The position numbers were made by a program, and so were the translations under genes. A DNA stretch of 20,874 bases from a virus: IMG/VR virus record IMGVR_UViG_3300025108_000471, positions 1 to 20,874 of that record; one strand, written 5' to 3'. Below the pieces are notes generated by a model. The model did not search any database. It had not been told where the DNA came from and worked only from the letters and a program-made list of their open reading frames with translations. Of the stretch, positions 2,645 through 17,388 are shown one piece after another (the first letter of the stretch is position 1; each line of letters starts with the position of its first letter).

Positions 2645-4942
2645 CTACTCTTTACCTTTGTTACGCAAGTTTTTTATTTCATCATTTACTGCTAGACCTA
2701 AAAGCTTGTTCGCACGCTCAACTTCATTCTTTCTTGTTTCACGTAAAAGCTTTTGTTGAGCTTTAGTAAGATTGAGTTCATTCTGTTGTTGCGATTGAGT
2801 TTCATGCTTCTTCTTGCTAATCTCAGTAGATGCTTGCATAACCTTGTTTTTAATACCTGCTTGAATGATTTGACGCTCAAGAGTTTCATTAGTACCTTTC
2901 TCTTTCTTAAGAGCTTCTTCCATACTAGCAACTTTACCTTGTAATTGAGAATAAAGACTTTTACGTTTAGCAATTTGTTCTTTATTCCTAATATCTGTTT
3001 CTGCAAGCAGAGCAATATCGTCTATTACGCCTAATTGCATTAATTGTTTCAATTCATCTAAGTATGCCCATCTATTAACAGGCAATGTAGATCCCGCTAC
3101 AACTCTAATATCAAACTTAGATGAACCATAATCTTTAAATTTACCAACAGCTTCACCTAAATCATTATACATTGGAACATTAATTTCAATCTGCCTGTCC
3201 TCTTGTAATGCTGAAGGCTGCACTATTCTAAATACTTTATGTGCTGTATAAACATGTTGACTAAATTGCTGCACAACAATACCAAGTTGTTTTAATGCAG
3301 GTTCAATCATATTTTTAAGCCAATGCTTTACACGTCTTGTGCCATATTCATCCATCGCAAGCATACCACGATAAGTTTCATGCTGAGCTGAAGTATCTCC
3401 TTGCATGGCTCCATAAATTCCAGCTAGATATTCCATATCTCCCTTACCTTCTTGTACGATACCAAAGAATGCATTAGATAAAGGTGCTGGCATTACAGGG
3501 GTTGGAGGAGTAGCTCCAGGTCTTATAGGTAGTAATGCTCCAGGGCTACTAGAGTATTGTTCCCAATAATCAGTATCAATACTTCCCTCCTCATGCATCC
3601 ATCTTAGTGAAGAACCTAATGATGCATTATGTACCATCAATTGATGTGCTTTGTTTAATTCTCGTTGTTTTCCAATAAGCGGAGACACAGCTGATATTGG
3701 ATATGGAGTCCCTGTCCATTTAAAATGAAATGGTACAATAGGATACTCTGTAATTCTTGAAGGTAAATATTTTGAACTTAAAGTTTTATCTCCTATTACC
3801 ACCGAATGCTTAATTTGATCTTTAAAGAAATTAACTTTATCTACTACCATAGAGGCAAACATTTTATCTTGCATCAAGATGGTAAATTCTTTTTTAGTAA
3901 TAACTTTATTTTCAATTTTAGAAGCTTCTGCCTGCAACTGACTCATATATTTCTGTTTAGCTTGTTCTAATTGCATTTTAACTTGATCCTGAGCTTTTCT
4001 CATTTCAAGTTCAAATCTTTCAGGAAGCATTTTGCCGCCCTGTACAGCTGCTTCCATCTGCTTTTGTTTTTCCATTAAACCAACAGACAATTCTTCCTGC
4101 AACTCTTTCAATTTAACCCTTACTTGTTGTTGGATCTGTTTTAATACTTCCTGACTAGGTGGTACTTTGTAAAAAACATTTACAAATTCTAATTTTTCTT
4201 TCTCATATAATTCAAAATACTCTAATAATTTATCATATTCACCACTCTTAGGATCAATACTTTCGCTCTCATCAATATCTTTATAGTGAAAATCTTTCTG
4301 GTCAGCTCCATATGATTTTTCAGTATAAACATAATCAATATTCTCTGATGAAGAAACATTTTTAATTTTTCTTTTATGATCAGGGAACAATTGCATGATA
4401 TGAGAAGCAGGTAATACTTTTCTAATCATTATGAAGGCAGCATCTCTAAATAACATATCTCTTGATTTAGGATCAATGAAAATGTCAAATGGTTCTGGCT
4501 GCTTTAATACTACATCTCCCATTCCCTGGTCACTATCAGGATTAACATCTACCATCATATATCCTATTGATTTGGTAATAGAATCATTAATAGCGTTAGC
4601 ATATAATGTACCGCCATCCGAATTATACCAAATATAGTCTGCCAAATCTGCGAACACTGCAGCCACATCTGAGTCTGAACCTTCAGCTGCTATAGCCTGC
4701 CATCTTGGAGTATTAGCTGTAGCATAGAAATTAAGCATTTCCACTACAGGCATAATACGATTAATGGTGAAAGTAGGCATACCCTGTTCTTCTAAAGACA
4801 CTCTTTCATCTTCAGTTAATTGATTGTCATTAGAAAAATCATGACCTTTTTGATTGATATACTCCCACTGTGTTCTCGTTTTAAGATTAACTTGGTTAAA
4901 TATCTGCCTAATTCTATTTGCTGTTTTATCTGTTTTTGCCAT
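2645..4942 (-). CDS. Portal protein (P22-like)
   Basis: A 765-residue protein forming the dodecameric DNA gateway at one capsid vertex. The N-terminal region (about 25-130: ERVSLEEQGMPTFTINRI, then FYATANTPRW and an aromatic-rich helix) is the recognisable portal start seen in P22-type portals, where the protein first meets the neck and head. A long Gln/Glu/Lys-rich coiled segment occupies about 265-350. The C-terminal ~110 residues are again helical and basic, compatible with a P22-like barrel. Length is near that of P22 portal (about 725). The start ATG at 4942 has GAGG 6 bases upstream. It lies 9 bases downstream of the lysozyme-like gene, which separates it from the terminase. Confidence 0.85.
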   Translation of the reverse strand: MAKTDKTANRIRQIFNQVNLKTRTQWEYINQKGHDFSNDNQLTEDERVSLEEQGMPTFTINRIMPVVEMLNFYATANTPRWQAIAAEGSDSDVAAVFADLADYIWYNSDGGTLYANAINDSITKSIGYMMVDVNPDSDQGMGDVVLKQPEPFDIFIDPKSRDMLFRDAAFIMIRKVLPASHIMQLFPDHKRKIKNVSSSENIDYVYTEKSYGADQKDFHYKDIDESESIDPKSGEYDKLLEYFELYEKEKLEFVNVFYKVPPSQEVLKQIQQQVRVKLKELQEELSVGLMEKQKQMEAAVQGGKMLPERFELEMRKAQDQVKMQLEQAKQKYMSQLQAEASKIENKVITKKEFTILMQDKMFASMVVDKVNFFKDQIKHSVVIGDKTLSSKYLPSRITEYPIVPFHFKWTGTPYPISAVSPLIGKQRELNKAHQLMVHNASLGSSLRWMHEEGSIDTDYWEQYSSSPGALLPIRPGATPPTPVMPAPLSNAFFGIVQEGKGDMEYLAGIYGAMQGDTSAQHETYRGMLAMDEYGTRRVKHWLKNMIEPALKQLGIVVQQFSQHVYTAHKVFRIVQPSALQEDRQIEINVPMYNDLGEAVGKFKDYGSSKFDIRVVAGSTLPVNRWAYLDELKQLMQLGVIDDIALLAETDIRNKEQIAKRKSLYSQLQGKVASMEEALKKEKGTNETLERQIIQAGIKNKVMQASTEISKKKHETQSQQQNELNLTKAQQKLLRETRKNEVERANKLLGLAVNDEIKNLRNKGKE

Positions 4943-10374: not shown

Positions 10375-10872
10375 ATGAAAAGACTAGAAATAATAATAGC
10401 AACTGCTTTTATAATATTAGGAGTATCGTTTGCATATTTTATGCATGATATAAGAAAAGATAATGAAGAAGCTTTATTTAATGCTGAAATAAGATTAGCT
10501 GATCTAATATCATACTTAGAAGAATGCGAAGAAGCTAACGCATACTATGAATACTTTGACGTAAATCATATAATGCCTGATGTTTATCCGTTTGAGCATG
10601 CATTTGAATCAGCCATATATTTATATGGTGAAGGTTCATTCTTTGAATGGCATGATGAACAGTATGCATTAGAATATGCAGAGCTTGCTACAACCACTTA
10701 TTCATCTAATTGGGTATTAAATTCAGATGATAAAGATGATAACTGTAGAAGTAACATACATGATGAATGTGGTGTTTGTGATGGTCCAGGTGCATATACT
10801 TGGTTTGCTGACACTGATAATGATGGTCTTGGTGATCCAGATAACTCTGTTAATAGTTGTTTCACACCATGA
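10375..10872 (+). CDS. Membrane-anchored protein with calcium-loop Cys-rich tail
   Basis: 165 residues. A signal-anchor helix spans about 5-22, followed by a helical acidic region (about 28-110). The C-terminal 45 residues contain ECGVCDG (131-137) and the Asp-rich loop DTDNDGLGDP (146-155), then a final Cys162. This Cys plus D-x-D-x-D-G pattern is the thrombospondin type 3/EF-hand-like calcium loop common in surface proteins of marine bacteria. Topology would place the tail outside the cytoplasm, where the Cys residues could form disulfides. It starts at ATG 10375 after AAAAAAGGA. A host-derived surface or superinfection-related protein is possible (inference). Its stop overlaps the next ATG (ATGA). 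Confidence 0.68.
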   Translation: MKRLEIIIATAFIILGVSFAYFMHDIRKDNEEALFNAEIRLADLISYLEECEEANAYYEYFDVNHIMPDVYPFEHAFESAIYLYGEGSFFEWHDEQYALEYAELATTTYSSNWVLNSDDKDDNCRSNIHDECGVCDGPGAYTWFADTDNDGLGDPDNSVNSCFTP

Positions 10873-11299: not shown

Positions 11300-11518
11300 A
11301 TGTATTATAGAGTATTAATGTCTATTAAAGACGATGAAAATAAAATAATAGATCATATGATTGGCTTACAAGACACAGAGATGGAAGCTGAGGCTTTTAT
11401 ATCAGGCTGGGCACAAGCAATTGTAGCACATACTGATGAAAAAGAATATGGTAAAATAAGAGGAATGTTCAGAATTGAACTTGTCAATAAAAAAGGAGAA
11501 ACAGATGAAAAAACATAA
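11300..11518 (+). CDS. Hypothetical protein
   Basis: 72 residues from ATG 11300 with AAGGA upstream. Predicted pattern: strand (YYRVLMSIKDD), strand (KIIDHMIGL), helix (EMEAEAFISGWAQAIVAH), strand (MFRIELVNKKGE). This alpha/beta layout is compact and acidic but not recognised. It overlaps the next gene by 14 bases, and its last codons carry that gene's Shine-Dalgarno (AAAGGAG), so the two are co-translated. Confidence 0.65.
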   Translation: MYYRVLMSIKDDENKIIDHMIGLQDTEMEAEAFISGWAQAIVAHTDEKEYGKIRGMFRIELVNKKGETDEKT

Positions 11519-11741
11519 AGCTAAACCATACATACTAGGTAATCAAGGATATCCAACTAAATTTAAAAACAAAGTTGTAAAGCATTATCTGACATCACAT
11601 CAACCATATAATGCACAGAAGACAGCTGAATATTTTAGACTTAGTCATATGACTATTCGTAAATGGGCATTAGATTATCAAATCAACCATCCGATCAAAT
11701 TTAAAATACTTAAAAAGATTGGAAGTATGTTACATGCGTAA
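11505..11741 (+). CDS. Small basic helix-turn-helix protein
   Basis: 78 residues from ATG 11505 (MKKHKAKPY), with AAAGGAG 8 bases upstream; the in-frame ATG at 11475 lacks a ribosome site. Residues ~15-58 form a homeodomain/transposase-like helix-turn-helix: helix KFKNKVVKHYLTSH, then NAQKTAEYFRLSHMTIRKWALDYQ, where the last part reads as the recognition helix. It is highly basic and is likely a DNA-binding regulator. It precedes and overlaps by 8 bases the AAA+ ATPase gene, so it may regulate or be co-expressed with the ubiquitin-like module. Confidence 0.65.
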   Translation: MKKHKAKPYILGNQGYPTKFKNKVVKHYLTSHQPYNAQKTAEYFRLSHMTIRKWALDYQINHPIKFKILKKIGSMLHA

Positions 11742-12999
11742 AGATGAAGTCATAGCTATGGAGCTTATTAACAGATATAAGGCAGATGTAAAAGATTCTG
11801 GGCCTGTATTTGTTGAAGCTGATAGTATGTATGGCTATGCATTTTTAAAGAGGCTGGTCAATCATAGTAAAAGGTATCAGACAAAAAGATTTCACTTGCA
11901 AGACATGGAACCTTGTTCTGGTACTAAGATGGCACCTATGATTTTTGGGTTATGTGCACCTAAAAAATATTCTAGAGACAAATCATTAAATTATAATGAT
12001 TCAACTGGAATGTGGAAGCTTAAATTTAACGATGGAAGTATCATATATCGTGCATGCATTATGACTGGAGCAGGTAGCAATAAAAGATTAGAAACTTTCA
12101 TAGCTACTGAAAAAGAAGTATTTTGGAAATGGTTAAAATATGTTAATAGACAAACAAACCGTTATCAAAAACCTAAACCAGGATTCTTTGTTGGACAAAT
12201 GACTCCTAATGGACTACTATATGTAGAACAAAAGAAGCCAGTACAAACTCCTGTAATTCATGAGGCTATTGATACAATGAAAGTTGATATGGAATATTTC
12301 TTTAACAATAATCATATATTTACTCGTTATAATATGCCTGGCACGCGCAAGATAATGTTAGTAGGTCCTCCAGGGACTGGTAAAACATCTATGTGCATTA
12401 AATTTGCCAGAGAATATAAAGATGATAAATCTATTGTTATAGCAAGTGATTTAGGTGCATTAGTTTCACATTTACGACGATGTGCACAACATAAAGTATC
12501 AACAATTGTAATTGTTGAAGATGCTGAAGCCATACTAAATGATACTGGTATGGGTACTTCTTCTCAATTACTGAATTTGTTAGATGGTATAAATCAACCA
12601 ACTAATAAAGCTGGAGCTTATATTATTATGACTACCAATCATCCTAATAGGATTGAAGATAGAATCCTAAAGAGGCCAGGTAGAATTGATAAGATAATTT
12701 CAGTAGGTCCCTTAAAGGATCAACAGGCTGTGGAGTGTGCTAAGTTATATTTTCCTGATGAGTTCAAAGACTGGACAAATCTAGAAAATGTAGTGAATAA
12801 CATGACAGGCGCGCAAATTAAAGAGCTAGCACAAAGTACGATGTGTTATGCTGCGCAAAACAGTCTTAAGTTTGATTTAAAGACTGTAAAACTAGTGAAA
12901 AGTAAGTTAACTGACGATCTAAGTGATGCATATAAATATGCAGAGGATAATACTATCGCTCAAAAAGGCAATAAAGTATCATTTGGATTCAATTCATAA
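11734..12999 (+). CDS. BCS1-type AAA+ ATPase
   Basis: 421 residues from ATG 11734 (GGAAG 8 bases upstream; an in-frame TTG at 11719 is less likely). The N-terminal ~170 residues are an unrecognised domain, followed by a linker helix before the AAA+ core. Walker A is GPPGTGKT (211-218). Walker B is IVIVEDAE (about 258-265), with the Glu-Asp order seen in BCS1-like ATPases rather than Asp-Glu. Sensor 1 is MTTN (about 299-302), and RPGR (314-317) supplies the arginine finger region. This class remodels or unfolds proteins as a ring. It ends 10 bases before the ubiquitin-like gene, in the same transcription direction, suggesting joint function. No protease domain is fused, so any proteolysis would need a partner. 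Confidence 0.85.
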   Translation: MRKDEVIAMELINRYKADVKDSGPVFVEADSMYGYAFLKRLVNHSKRYQTKRFHLQDMEPCSGTKMAPMIFGLCAPKKYSRDKSLNYNDSTGMWKLKFNDGSIIYRACIMTGAGSNKRLETFIATEKEVFWKWLKYVNRQTNRYQKPKPGFFVGQMTPNGLLYVEQKKPVQTPVIHEAIDTMKVDMEYFFNNNHIFTRYNMPGTRKIMLVGPPGTGKTSMCIKFAREYKDDKSIVIASDLGALVSHLRRCAQHKVSTIVIVEDAEAILNDTGMGTSSQLLNLLDGINQPTNKAGAYIIMTTNHPNRIEDRILKRPGRIDKIISVGPLKDQQAVECAKLYFPDEFKDWTNLENVVNNMTGAQIKELAQSTMCYAAQNSLKFDLKTVKLVKSKLTDDLSDAYKYAEDNTIAQKGNKVSFGFNS

Positions 13000-13009
13000 G
13001 GAGGGCATT

Positions 13010-13234
13010 ATGCCTAAGATTAAAATGTTATCAGGTGCAGGTTTTGTAGAACAAGAAGTTGCATCTTCAAGTGTAGGTGAATTAAGAGATGAATTAGATA
13101 TTTCATCTAACGCTGCTGTTTCAGTAAATGGAACTAATACTCGCAATTCAACCGCTATCAATGATGGTGATTTTGTTGCTGCAGTGAGTAATGACAAAAC
13201 AGGTGGACGTATTATTTCAGTCTGGTCTGTATAG
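13010..13234 (+). CDS. Ubiquitin-like beta-grasp protein with internal Gly-Gly
   Basis: 74 residues from ATG 13010, with a very strong TAAGGAGGG. The layout follows ThiS/MoaD-type beta-grasp proteins: strands PKIKML and GFVEQEVA, helix SVGELRDELD, strand AAVSVNGT, then INDGDFVAAV and a Gly-Gly at 65-66. The DGD-to-GG distance is 10 residues, against 9 in E. coli ThiS (from memory). Unlike mature ThiS, MoaD or ubiquitin, eight residues (RIISVWSV) follow the Gly-Gly, so maturation by a protease would be needed to expose it; the JAMM protease 2.7 kb downstream is the obvious candidate. The gene is followed by strong hairpins, and its codon use suggests good expression. An alternative is that GG is incidental and the tail is a final strand. 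Confidence 0.75.
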   Translation: MPKIKMLSGAGFVEQEVASSSVGELRDELDISSNAAVSVNGTNTRNSTAINDGDFVAAVSNDKTGGRIISVWSV

Positions 13235-13245
13235 TCTTTAACCTA

Positions 13246-13274
13246 GAGAGGTAGCTGTCGGATAGTTACCTCTC
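13246..13274 (+). other. Stem-loop after ubiquitin-like gene
   Basis: An 11-pair stem (13246-13256 with 13264-13274, one G-U) has a 7-base loop. It lies 11 bases after the Ubl stop codon. It lacks a T-run and belongs to the same G-rich 5' arm class as other intergenic hairpins in this window; it could protect the 3' end of the Ubl message. Confidence 0.65.
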
Positions 13275-14100: not shown

Positions 14101-14303
14101 GTTCTGTAGGGCGACATTACAAGCAACAAGACACTATTTCAAACAAATTATTTAAATGTAATAAATGTAATTTTGTTTGGACACAAATATATGAAATGGG
14201 AAGAACAAAACTTGTAGAATATTATAGAGATTTTCCCACTTATCAATTAACACGAAAAACATGTAAGGAATGCTTAAATGAATCGAATAGAAATAAAAAA
14301 TAA
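14097..14303 (+). CDS. Zinc-ribbon protein
   Basis: 68 residues from ATG 14097 (ATGA overlap with the upstream stop); an in-frame TTG at 14082 is less likely. Cys pairs CNKC (21-24) and CKEC (56-59) flank a strand-rich stretch (FVWTQIYEMG, then a basic helix-like region), a classic zinc ribbon of about 40 residues. The remainder is basic (N-terminus RHYKQQ, C-terminus NRNKK), which suits nucleic-acid binding. It overlaps the next gene by 26 bases. One of three consecutive small zinc or winged-helix genes placed between the Ubl and the JAB/E1 genes. Confidence 0.65.
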   Translation: MSSVGRHYKQQDTISNKLFKCNKCNFVWTQIYEMGRTKLVEYYRDFPTYQLTRKTCKECLNESNRNKK

Positions 14304-15876
14304 TATACAAAATTGGAATGGAATCAAGGAACTACAAGATCAAATAATTTTAGGCCCTCAAGCTGATATATTATCAAGCTTGGCTCGTATTAATACTCGA
14401 TATAAAAGCAACTTTGGTATTACTAAAACTTTTAGATGGTCTCCTGGTTTTACTAAAGAAAGAAATAGAGTAGTATTGGAAATGTTGGGATTAAATAAAA
14501 AAGGTAAAACTACTACTTATTCTAATCGTATAGACAATAGCCAATGGTACAGAACTCATTTATTTAACAATTTAATAGCTGCTGAAAATTCTTTAAGTAA
14601 TTTAAGGAATAATAATATACTTTTTCAAGATAATACTGATATTGTAAATGATATAATAACTTTTATTCGCAATAAAATTGAACAAGAATTGTTAGTTGTT
14701 AATCAAGCATTCAGTCATAAATGTTCATTATCTACTTATATTACTGATAGTACGCCTGATGGAGAGTATTCTTCTGCAATAGCAATAGAATGGTCTATGA
14801 AACCATATAATATTCAATATTATCCTTCAGTTTATGCAAAAGAAGCTATTGATATTCCTGCAAATAAAACAATGATTGTAGGATTTATTCCAATGGTACC
14901 TTTATTAACTCATTTGGGTAAATATTTAGCTGATAATCAAGATATTGATCAAGATGTAGCATTGGAAAATGGATTGTTATCTTTTAATCAGATGAAAATA
15001 AAAGGAATTTATGATAATCAGTATAAATTAAAACACCCTTATATTTGTCCTCGTTGGGAAACTAGCGGACGAGAAGAATATATTAATCCAAATACTGAAA
15101 CAACACATATGCTACATAATACATGTACTGGAACTTATGATAATTTAGGACGATTAATTACTCAATTTGACTTAGTTTCTGCAACAAATATTATCATACA
15201 ATGGTTGTCAAGATTTATTGAAGGAAAGACTAATCCTCTGAATAATATGAAATATACTTTTGCAGGAAAACCTGCAGGATTAGAAAACACTTCATTATTA
15301 TCTGATCGATCAGAATTTAGATGTTTTAACCTCAAGGTAAAAACTGACTATTGCAAATCAATAGATTGTACGTTAAAAGATACATGTCTTAGAAATGAAC
15401 TTGCAAATGATTCAACAACAGCAAATATAGATGAAGATAAATTACATTTATTTTGTACTTCATTTTTTCAATATTATTTTAGAAATGATAATCATGCTGA
15501 ACGTTTAATACTTGATTTACTTTCAGATAATGAGACAATTCAAACATTAGCATCAGCTATGTATGAAACAATGTCTTATCATGGATCAATATGTGATTTA
15601 ATATATTCACTCATGCAACATGCATATGATTGGGATGATTATGAGGTTCATGTAGAATATTTTAAAGTATGGCATCATGATACATGCAAATCATATTATT
15701 CTTTAGAGGAATATTATGAACAATATGATTTATTTCTGAATACGCCTATGCAATCAGATCCTGAATCTGAAGATTGTTTAAAAGAAGATACTAGAGAAGC
15801 TGATATGATGATCTGGTTAAATTCTAATAATATATCATTAGAAAATGTTAATCAAACATTAAATGAAGTTTTTTAA
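14278..15876 (+). CDS. Large unknown protein, E2-like candidate in Ubl operon
   Basis: 532 residues from ATG 14278 (TAAGGA upstream). Residues ~125-145 form a helix, followed by strand-like segments (150-205 and 236-255) and then KHPYI (252-256) and NTCTG with Cys283, followed by a long helix (298-316). This order (helix, strands, His-Pro, Cys-x-Gly, helices) is that of ubiquitin-conjugating E2 folds, with a longer His-Pro to Cys gap than usual (30 residues versus 8-10). A second cysteine cluster, C349, C359, C364, C370, could hold zinc or Fe-S. The rest (about 380-532) is acidic and helical. Position directly before JAB and E1 genes matches the E2 place in PRTRC-type operons, as I recall. 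The function is not established by motif alone. Confidence 0.42.
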   Translation: MNRIEIKNNIQNWNGIKELQDQIILGPQADILSSLARINTRYKSNFGITKTFRWSPGFTKERNRVVLEMLGLNKKGKTTTYSNRIDNSQWYRTHLFNNLIAAENSLSNLRNNNILFQDNTDIVNDIITFIRNKIEQELLVVNQAFSHKCSLSTYITDSTPDGEYSSAIAIEWSMKPYNIQYYPSVYAKEAIDIPANKTMIVGFIPMVPLLTHLGKYLADNQDIDQDVALENGLLSFNQMKIKGIYDNQYKLKHPYICPRWETSGREEYINPNTETTHMLHNTCTGTYDNLGRLITQFDLVSATNIIIQWLSRFIEGKTNPLNNMKYTFAGKPAGLENTSLLSDRSEFRCFNLKVKTDYCKSIDCTLKDTCLRNELANDSTTANIDEDKLHLFCTSFFQYYFRNDNHAERLILDLLSDNETIQTLASAMYETMSYHGSICDLIYSLMQHAYDWDDYEVHVEYFKVWHHDTCKSYYSLEEYYEQYDLFLNTPMQSDPESEDCLKEDTREADMMIWLNSNNISLENVNQTLNEVF

Positions 15877-15898: not shown

Positions 15899-16738
15899 AT
15901 GTTTTACATTCACAATAAAACATGGAAAAAAGTAATACAATATGCTGAGTCTGCACATACTCAGTTTAAATCTGAAATCAGTGGTATGCTTATAGCCACA
16001 TTGGATGATGAAGGAGATTGGGAGGTTCATTCTCCCGTTATTCTTAAACAAAAAGTAAGTGCAGGTAATACTGTTTTAAATAAAGAAGAATTAGCTAAAT
16101 ATTATGCTAAAACAGGGAAGAAGTATAAAGGAGCAGTTAAATTTGTATGGTGGCATAGTCATCATACTATGTCTGCTTTCTGGTCAGGTACTGATCATGA
16201 AGCTATTAAAGAGTATGCAGATGGTGATTGGTCTTTAGCATTAGTAGTTAACTTAAAAGAAGAATATAAGTTTAGAGTATCTTATTGGAATCCAATAGAA
16301 TCTCATGAAGATATTGATTTATTATTTATAGATAATGACAATAAACCAACTAAAATTATTAATGATGAAGTGAAAAACCTATGTAATCAAAAGGTTGTTC
16401 ATAATAAAACATACAAAAGAAATTTTCAAAATGGTATTCGAAATTCTTATAATGATTATTATCCTCACGAAAATGATGGGCAATATGAAATATGGGAAGG
16501 ATCAGACTCTATTTTGATTAAAACTTTAGACTTTATTGACAATATTAATGGTAAATATTTCATAGGAACTATTAATTATGAAGAATGGAAGGAACAAGCT
16601 GTTAGTTGGAATACAAAAGATCTTGCAAAACAAGATTTTTATATTGAAATTTGTACTGAATCAGTGCTTGACGATAAATGCATAACAGATGTAAATTCTT
16701 CATTTATAAAAAGATCAATGATTGGAAGCTTAGTATGA
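15899..16738 (+). CDS. JAB/JAMM metalloprotease (deubiquitinase-like)
   Basis: 279 residues from ATG 15899 with AAAAAAGGAG upstream. The JAMM zinc-protease signature is complete: Glu26 in SEISGML, then His86 and His88 in WWHSHH, Ser96 and Asp99 in SGTD, i.e. H-x-H-x7-S-x2-D. JAMM proteins cut isopeptide or peptide bonds after ubiquitin-like Gly-Gly; in prokaryotic systems they both mature precursors and remove tags. The MPN core spans about 10-135. Residues 140-279 are a C-terminal extension without recognised motif and may dock the E1 or substrate. Its stop overlaps the E1 start (ATGA), so the two are made together. Cytoplasmic, no signal peptide. Confidence 0.9.
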   Translation: MFYIHNKTWKKVIQYAESAHTQFKSEISGMLIATLDDEGDWEVHSPVILKQKVSAGNTVLNKEELAKYYAKTGKKYKGAVKFVWWHSHHTMSAFWSGTDHEAIKEYADGDWSLALVVNLKEEYKFRVSYWNPIESHEDIDLLFIDNDNKPTKIINDEVKNLCNQKVVHNKTYKRNFQNGIRNSYNDYYPHENDGQYEIWEGSDSILIKTLDFIDNINGKYFIGTINYEEWKEQAVSWNTKDLAKQDFYIEICTESVLDDKCITDVNSSFIKRSMIGSLV

Positions 16739-17388
16739 TTAATGAAAGATCAGAAGGAATAGTTAATAATCTTCAAAATTATACTTTTCATATTTTAGGC
16801 TGTGGAGCTATTGGTAGCTCTGCAGCTGTGCAATTAACACGTATGGGAGCAAAGAATTTGTGTCTGTATGACATGGATATAGTAGAGCAAGCTAATATAG
16901 GAGTATCTCAATATGAGATATCTGATATTGGAAGTAATAAAGTTGATGCTTTAAGTAAAATATTAAAAGGTATTGAGTCAAATACCAATATTTATACTTA
17001 TCATGAACCATTTAGTGAATGGTATTACCAAGATATGAAAGATATAGTGATATTAGGATTTGATAATATGGATGCACGTTTATTAGCTATGGAAATAATT
17101 GAACATCATCCAAAAAAGCCTCTATTCTTAATCGATGGAAGAATGGGTGCAGAACATTACCAACAATATACACTACCTAAACCTACATTAGCTAAATATA
17201 AGAAGATCTGGTACGCTGAAGGAAGCCCTGAACCATGTAATGCAAAAGCTACTAGTTATTGCAGTAATATGGCTGGATCCTTTATATCCAATACAGTTAG
17301 AAAGCTTACTACTAAACAACCTTACAATAAGGTGTTAAATTTTAACTTTCCAACTTTAATCTTGGAAAAGAGTACTATGTATTCGTAA
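16735..17388 (+). CDS. ThiF/E1-like adenylating enzyme
   Basis: 217 residues from ATG 16735 (ATGA overlap with JAB; an in-frame ATG at 16678 inside the JAB gene is unlikely). The Rossmann nucleotide site is HILGCGAIGSS (19-29), then Asp46 and Asp48 in YDMDIVEQ, Asn54, Lys69 in GSNKVDAL and Asp110 with Arg114 in GFDNMDARLLA: the E1/ThiF adenylation motifs that activate the C-terminal Gly of a ubiquitin-like protein with ATP. Candidate thiol Cys are C168 and C176. Unlike MoeB or ThiF it lacks the paired CxxC zinc motifs and has GVSQ where NLxRQ is usual, with no arginine there. It is short for an E1. Its partner is most likely the 74-residue Ubl upstream. Confidence 0.85.
   Translation: MINERSEGIVNNLQNYTFHILGCGAIGSSAAVQLTRMGAKNLCLYDMDIVEQANIGVSQYEISDIGSNKVDALSKILKGIESNTNIYTYHEPFSEWYYQDMKDIVILGFDNMDARLLAMEIIEHHPKKPLFLIDGRMGAEHYQQYTLPKPTLAKYKKIWYAEGSPEPCNAKATSYCSNMAGSFISNTVRKLTTKQPYNKVLNFNFPTLILEKSTMYS

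Follow-up and report, generated by a model that had tools for sequence, protein, structure and literature searches.

The window analysed here is the whole stretch of a virus record, 20,874 bases in length, and it bears a gene for a small ubiquitin-like (Ubl) protein on its plus strand. The minus strand contains large open reading frames (ORFs) resembling capsid, portal, and terminase, where the terminase call is based on similarity to annotated phage terminases and the capsid and portal calls on size and order. An ERF recombinase is encoded on the plus strand. The features of the Ubl gene and of the genes associated with it are listed in Table 1.

Table 1. Positions of the Ubl gene, its parts, and the associated genes in the window.
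Feature	Position	Strand	Basis
Shine-Dalgarno sequence AGGAGG of the Ubl gene	12999..13004	+	Sequence
Ubl gene, 74 aa, ThiS/MoaD-type beta-grasp precursor (predicted)	13010..13234	+	Pfam ThiS; 51 distinct relatives; MoaD/ThiS/TtuB/SAMP2-like model
Codons for Gly65-Gly66, predicted mature C-terminus	13202..13207	+	Gly-Gly in 51/51 relatives
Tail RIISVWSV (residues 67-74), predicted to be removed	13208..13231	+	Length 0-60 and mostly unrelated sequence among relatives
13-bp hairpin directly 3' of the Ubl stop	13246..13274	+	Fold; alignment with L002
E2-like ORF, 532 aa; UBC-like domain at about residues 124-329; Cys283 at 15124-15126	14278..15876	+	44-sequence alignment; structural matches
JAMM/MPN+ metalloprotease, 279 aa; Glu26; HSHHTMSAFWSGTD at 16154-16195	15899..16738	+	Motif; Prok-JAB; structure match
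E1/ThiF-like adenylating enzyme	16735..17388	+	ThiF, E 4e-20

The Ubl ORF has an ATG start, 74 codons, and a TAG stop, and it is a real gene; its translation is MPKIKMLSGAGFVEQEVASSSVGELRDELDISSNAAVSVNGTNTRNSTAINDGDFVAAVSNDKTGGRIISVWSV, with DGD at residues 52-54. The protein passes the Pfam ThiS profile (E 9e-5, 23.4 bits, cut-off 22.5), and 16 of 35 Ubl relatives match this profile at E ≤ 0.5. Both the window protein and its relatives contain a single Ubl domain. Over the 66-codon body, the window gene and that of its nearest relative, locus L002, differ by 21 synonymous and 2 non-synonymous codon changes (dN 0.044, dS 0.67), and the gene is under purifying selection. The Gly-Gly is not the C-terminal end of the protein as encoded in the window; the eight residues RIISVWSV, which the first-pass annotation had placed after it, are read directly from the bases. 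The hairpin that follows the stop codon has a folding energy of −19 kcal/mol (z −4.1) and is terminator-like without a T run. It recurs in L002, where a compensatory change has turned T-A into C-G, and no match to it was found in Rfam.

The Ubl, E2-like, JAMM, and E1 genes form a cassette in which all members lie on the same strand. When each contig with an E1 was counted once and sufficient upstream sequence was available, the E1 was linked to a JAMM in 73 of 73 cases, to an E2-like gene in 51 of 51, and to a Ubl in 41 of 41. The genes run Ubl-E2-JAMM-E1 in 51 contigs, and another 2 contigs have E2-JAMM-E1-Ubl. The JAMM stop of the window overlaps the likely start of its E1 in the four bases ATGA; the longest E1 ORF begins at 16678, and the overlapping ATG is that at 16735. 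Because these four genes are found together in dozens of related viruses, the set looks like a phage-owned protein-tagging system, and no report of a Ubl/E2-like/JAMM/E1 cassette in phages was found in the open-access literature. The first-pass annotation had pointed to a JAMM encoded nearby, which is borne out by the ORF with its zinc motif; the predicted system is larger than that annotation saw, as an E2-like gene and an E1 stand in a fixed cassette with the Ubl and the JAMM. In L002, no E2, JAMM, or E1 is encoded in the 4.7 kb downstream of the Ubl, up to the contig end. In L031-L034, about 3.3 kb of extra sequence lies between the E2-like and JAMM genes, the cassette being otherwise tight.

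Several other genes lie on the upstream side of the Ubl gene. An AAA ATPase (11719-12996), with weak matches to the IetA and TRIP13 defence models, adjoins it; this gene was rejected as a cassette member because it is absent from all the relatives fetched. A 72-aa protein encoded at 11300-11518 has relatives in 22 fetched loci, and in several of them (L002, L017) it is the next gene upstream of the Ubl. A further protein, encoded at 10375-10872, has a hydrophobic segment at its N-terminus and ends in a Cys-rich region that resembles calcium repeats (CGVCDGPG...DTDNDGLGDP).

Direct searches with the Ubl returned near-identical copies only, including L002, whose tail is RLISVWPGK. Further relatives were obtained by a scan with a conserved terminase-adjacent protein followed by tblastn, and their Ubls end in DKTGG-DKE (L017), NKTGG-LEVINFVICK (L019), and DKKGG-K (L020), where the hyphen marks the end of the Gly-Gly. 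Scans of IMG/VR phage contigs with the Ubl and E1 alignments then gave 86 contigs with an E1 and 51 distinct Ubls; these contigs are metagenomic, and several represent close populations. A tblastn search of annotated phages and plasmids with the Ubl gave nothing convincing, and the strict DNA pattern DGDxV...DKTGG had no match in viral contigs. A single match in genome_contigs (L044, Marinicaulis) was rejected as spurious, since the matched stretch has no Gly-Gly and no E2, JAMM, or E1 lies near it.

The Gly-Gly is present in all 51 distinct Ubls, and the invariant positions of a 35-member alignment are F12, E28, V39, A57, K63, G65, and G66. This conservation is not a product of the searches, because the scan patterns did not contain the Gly-Gly and many of the Ubls were entered via the E1. 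The sequence beyond it varies widely. The tail has 0 residues in 8 Ubls, in which the Gly-Gly is thus C-terminal as encoded, 1 residue in 10, 2 in 13, 3 in 5, and 6-60 in 15, and there is no constraint on the residue directly after the Gly-Gly, which may be D, E, K, R, C, I, A, T, L, S, Q, or G. Among Ubl pairs whose bodies are at least 95% identical, the mean tail identity is 0.42, and the tail is common to 6 of the 23. Three identical bodies have the different ends GG-C (L113), GG-IK (L112), and GG-AK (L121). In a near-identical pair, L104 stops at the Gly-Gly and L106 continues as GG-MTYYIKYSK; their DNA agrees through the second Gly codon, at which point L104 ends and L106 has an insert, after which the agreement resumes. 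The tail is largely kept between the window and L002, with R[I/L]ISVW common to both. The eight tail-less Ubls are all of a single sequence type, I[N]LL.NGEFTSRDV, and therefore look like a single clade in which the tail was lost.

This combination of a constant Gly-Gly and variable tails is that expected for a precursor undergoing processing, as the first-pass annotation had proposed, and the opposite outcome, in which the tail is kept and the Gly-Gly is lost, is excluded among the 51 relatives. Simple translation onward to the next stop is a poor explanation of the tails, as 36 of 51 have at most 3 residues against about 27-32% expected from the local stop frequency; the binomial probability of this excess, 1.9e-10 to 2.9e-8, is too small a figure because the Ubls share ancestry. 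In L050 and L051, the Ubl ORFs (671-1108 and 3075-3512) carry a 60-residue extension fused after the Gly-Gly, and their close relative L048 ends in GG-KTI. The fused long tails of L051 and L053 had no match in any of the other loci.

A predicted model of the Ubl, built from a 5-sequence alignment, has a mean pLDDT of 71.2, and its structural matches are TtuB, TGS, MoaD, and ThiS at Z 4-5.8; SAMP2 bound to PfJAMM1 (5lda) is also among the matches. Residue 65 of the model is aligned with the final Gly of MoaD (1jwb; model residues 8-65 on chain residues 12-81) and likewise with that of TtuB (5ztb; 4-65 on 1-65). The earlier claim that Gly65-Gly66 lies where ThiS/MoaD proteins end is thus in accord with the model. 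The alignments of ThiS, MoaD, SAMP, and ubiquitin to the model end at residues 61-67.

The E2-like ORF had no family match, and Pfam, NCBIfam, and PADLOC gave no known E2 family for it. Across 44 E2-like sequences, C283, W309, G330, C364, and C370 are invariant, and [H/F]P[Y/F]I occurs at residues 253-256, upstream of Cys283. In E2 enzymes, an HPN motif is followed by the active-site Cys. The arrangement in the phage protein recalls this layout, with the Asn of HPN replaced and a longer spacing to the Cys. A single predicted model has a mean pLDDT of 73.8, and a plain Foldseek search of the PDB with it gave nothing significant. Structural re-alignment of residues 124-329 gave UbcH5c (Z 5.5 over 130 residues at 3.7 Å), the Cap2 E2 domain (Z 5.2), UbcH5b, the TSG101 UEV, and Ube2W, all at Z 4.7-5.5 (E2/UEV chains overall at Z 4.5-5.5), where a Z near 5 lies within the range that unrelated folds can give. 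That several of these matches belong to a single superfamily is suggestive of an E2/UBC-like fold. Six viral proteins match strongly, with E 1e-17 or better, and presumably belong to the same family. Cys349, 359, 364, and 370, in residues 349-370, are nearly invariant and may form a zinc site beside the UBC-like domain.

The JAMM motif H-x-H-x7-S-x2-D is intact in all 63 distinct sequences, and the Glu is present in 62 of them. The window JAMM scores 23.8 bits against Prok-JAB, slightly under the cut-off of 25. When the JAMM profile was compared with solved structures, one family had a meaningful score, namely the Rpn11-like protein of C. subterraneum (6fjv, 6fnn, 6fju; E 4.6e-5). An intact JAMM also adjoins all eight tail-less Ubls. 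Because these Ubls have kept it, the JAMM as predicted from these gene neighborhoods must also, and perhaps mainly, deconjugate; deconjugation must be at least part of its job, and maturation cannot be its sole role. Regarding the earlier proposal of a precursor matured by the JAMM, the precursor layout is supported, and the JAMM as a dedicated maturase is not.

The E1 has UBA5, MccB, ThiF, and MoeB as solved relatives. Its ATP site is conserved, with the glycine motif GCGAIGS in 63 of 63 sequences, and a Cys in a C..K motif (codon 17236-17238 in the window) is equally invariant; in the E1s of crAss-like phages this Cys is present as CSYKQT. In L118 (4128-4832), the E1 is apparently split into two ORFs, which may reflect a frameshift, a sequencing error, or inactivation.

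Among known systems, the bacterial BIL locus (BilABCD) is similar in that it comprises Ubl, E2, JAB/JAMM, and E1 as four genes, where the letters A-B-C-D correspond to the order Ubl-E2-JAMM-E1; the phage order matches this layout, with the identity of one gene as an E2 resting on a weak structural match. In BIL, the JAB enzyme BilC opens the Ubl precursor BilA before conjugation (PMC11354881). BIL is a host defence locus, whereas the present cassette is carried by phages. BilA has two Ubl domains and the phage Ubl has one, and the cassette is therefore not filed as BIL. The phage E2-like protein further differs from the BIL E2 in its 532 aa, its large extra helical regions, and its failure to match known E2 profiles. 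A masked Gly-Gly, a JAMM, and separate E1 and E2 are also found in Caldiarchaeum subterraneum, where the Rpn11-like JAMM removes a nine-residue tail from pro-ubiquitin and the E1 ignores the uncut form (PMC5654768). That system is archaeal, has the JAMM gene in the opposite direction of transcription and a RING-type E3, and uses a ubiquitin homologue as the modifier; in contrast to its nine-residue tail, those of the phage Ubls are hypervariable and in some cases missing. In Haloferax, HvJAMM1 cuts precisely after the glycine of SAMP1 in a linear fusion (PMC4443979).

Type II CBASS resembles the cassette in that the phage E1 matches CBASS E1-E2 models (E 1.5e-16), the JAMM matches CBASS JAB models, and the E2-like model matches the Cap2 E2 domain. 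However, Cap2 is a fused E2-E1, whereas the phage E1 and E2-like proteins are encoded by separate genes in all contigs and a Ubl is present. No cyclic-nucleotide synthase was recognised among the window ORFs scanned by general profiles. Against the PRTRC A, ThiF, and C profiles, the cassette scores were far under the cut-offs or absent. Assignment to CBASS or PRTRC was rejected, as there is no fused Cap2 and the PRTRC scores are far too low. Bacterial operons of the type Ubl-E2-JAB-E1 were described by Iyer and colleagues, as was a Ubl of phage tail assembly that is accompanied by a JAB (PMC1779556). The latter, the lambda-type TAPI with the TAPK JAB, is likewise a phage Ubl with a glycine whose release by a JAB peptidase is predicted (PMC1779556), but these are tail-assembly genes without E1 or E2, and the Ubl is fused to another domain.

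The crAss-like phages (phi-crAss001 gp79-gp76) have an E1 of about 30-36% identity, a JAMM with HSH..........SGTD, and a Cys-containing ORF (PC[TL]GxGPI) before the JAMM in the same order, together with a protein in which a variable extension follows a conserved KKI[KR]SG. They differ in having SG instead of GG and extensions that are mostly much longer. Comparing profiles of the Ubl and E2-like families with those of the crAss proteins did not support a relationship, so the crAss link consists of the E1, the JAMM, and the gene order only. In L006, L007, L008, and L123-L127, all crAss-like, a primase, the KKI[KR]SG protein, the PC[TL]GxGPI protein, the JAMM, and the E1 always follow one another in this order; most of them are annotated as hypothetical, metalloprotease, or thiamine biosynthesis. 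In L007 (cr106_1, 1695-2898), an HNH endonuclease gene interrupts the gp79-type gene directly behind KKIKSG-KF, and the C-terminal part of the latter is a separate ORF.

Taken as a whole, the cassette probably provides the phage with a BIL-like system of Ubl conjugation in which the precursor is masked. In the pathway we infer, the Ubl would be made as an inactive precursor of ThiS/MoaD fold whose Gly65-Gly66 is capped by a disposable tail, and the JAMM of the cassette would cut after Gly66. The adjacent E1 would adenylate the freed glycine and probably accept the Ubl on its conserved Cys. The E2-like protein would then receive the Ubl on Cys283 and transfer it to amino groups on proteins of the phage or the host, from which the JAMM would also take it off again. 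One possibility for why most members keep the tail is that the mask may delay activation until the JAMM accumulates.

The Gly-Gly is, with high confidence, the working end of the Ubl. The different reading that the tail is a functional peptide or a strand of the Ubl, with the Gly-Gly as a coincidental turn, draws on the model, in which residues 67-73 appear as a strand, and on the R[I/L]ISVW kept in L002. However, that strand is drawn weakly, at a pLDDT of about 63-66, and the ThiS/MoaD-type fold matches stop before it; across the relatives, the Gly-Gly is constant, whereas the tail is absent or has 1-3 residues in 36 of 51. The structure prediction, which the first-pass annotation had named as a means of placing the tail, speaks weakly against a removable tail in the strand drawn and for it in the end of the fold alignments, and the reading as a whole is largely refuted and hardly credible. 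Another reading takes the E1 product to be a Ubl thiocarboxylate, a sulfur carrier for biosynthesis or RNA modification without protein conjugation. The Ubl and E1 do score to the ThiS/MoaD and ThiF families, but no ThiG, MoaE, rhodanese, or other sulfur gene was recognised among the window ORFs scanned, and wherever the contig is long enough, a JAMM and an E2-like protein with its invariant Cys are present, which makes this reading very improbable.

A closer competitor accepts the Gly-Gly as the working end and supposes that the JAMM only deconjugates, short tails being trimmed by host peptidases or tolerated. The intact JAMM beside all eight tail-less Ubls, the predominance of tails of 1-3 residues, and the lack of constraint on the residue after the Gly-Gly agree with it. 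However, tails of 6-60 residues are found in 15 of 51 distinct genes, which makes trimming by non-specific peptidases less likely; moreover, an archaeal JAMM does both jobs (PMC5654768), and another cuts after a Ubl glycine in a linear fusion (PMC4443979). Restriction of the JAMM to deconjugation is thus considered unlikely, and the JAMM is the likely enzyme for exposing the Gly-Gly.

In the widest form of the proposal, to which we give an even chance, this phage group would own a complete Ubl/E1/E2-like/JAMM tagging pathway, used in infection on phage or host proteins, and its modifier would be made with a masking tail whose turnover is much more rapid than that of the protein itself. A similar principle may apply to the crAss-like phages of the gut, where a long detachable domain would take the place of the tail. 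The precursor allows a simple first assay, the mass change of one small protein, and the natural Ubl pairs with and without tails are built-in controls for the importance of masking. Bacteria use BIL-type Ubl tagging against phages, and a phage-owned equivalent, if true, would turn the same chemistry to the side of the virus; the origin and use of Ubl conjugation in viruses would then become directly testable.
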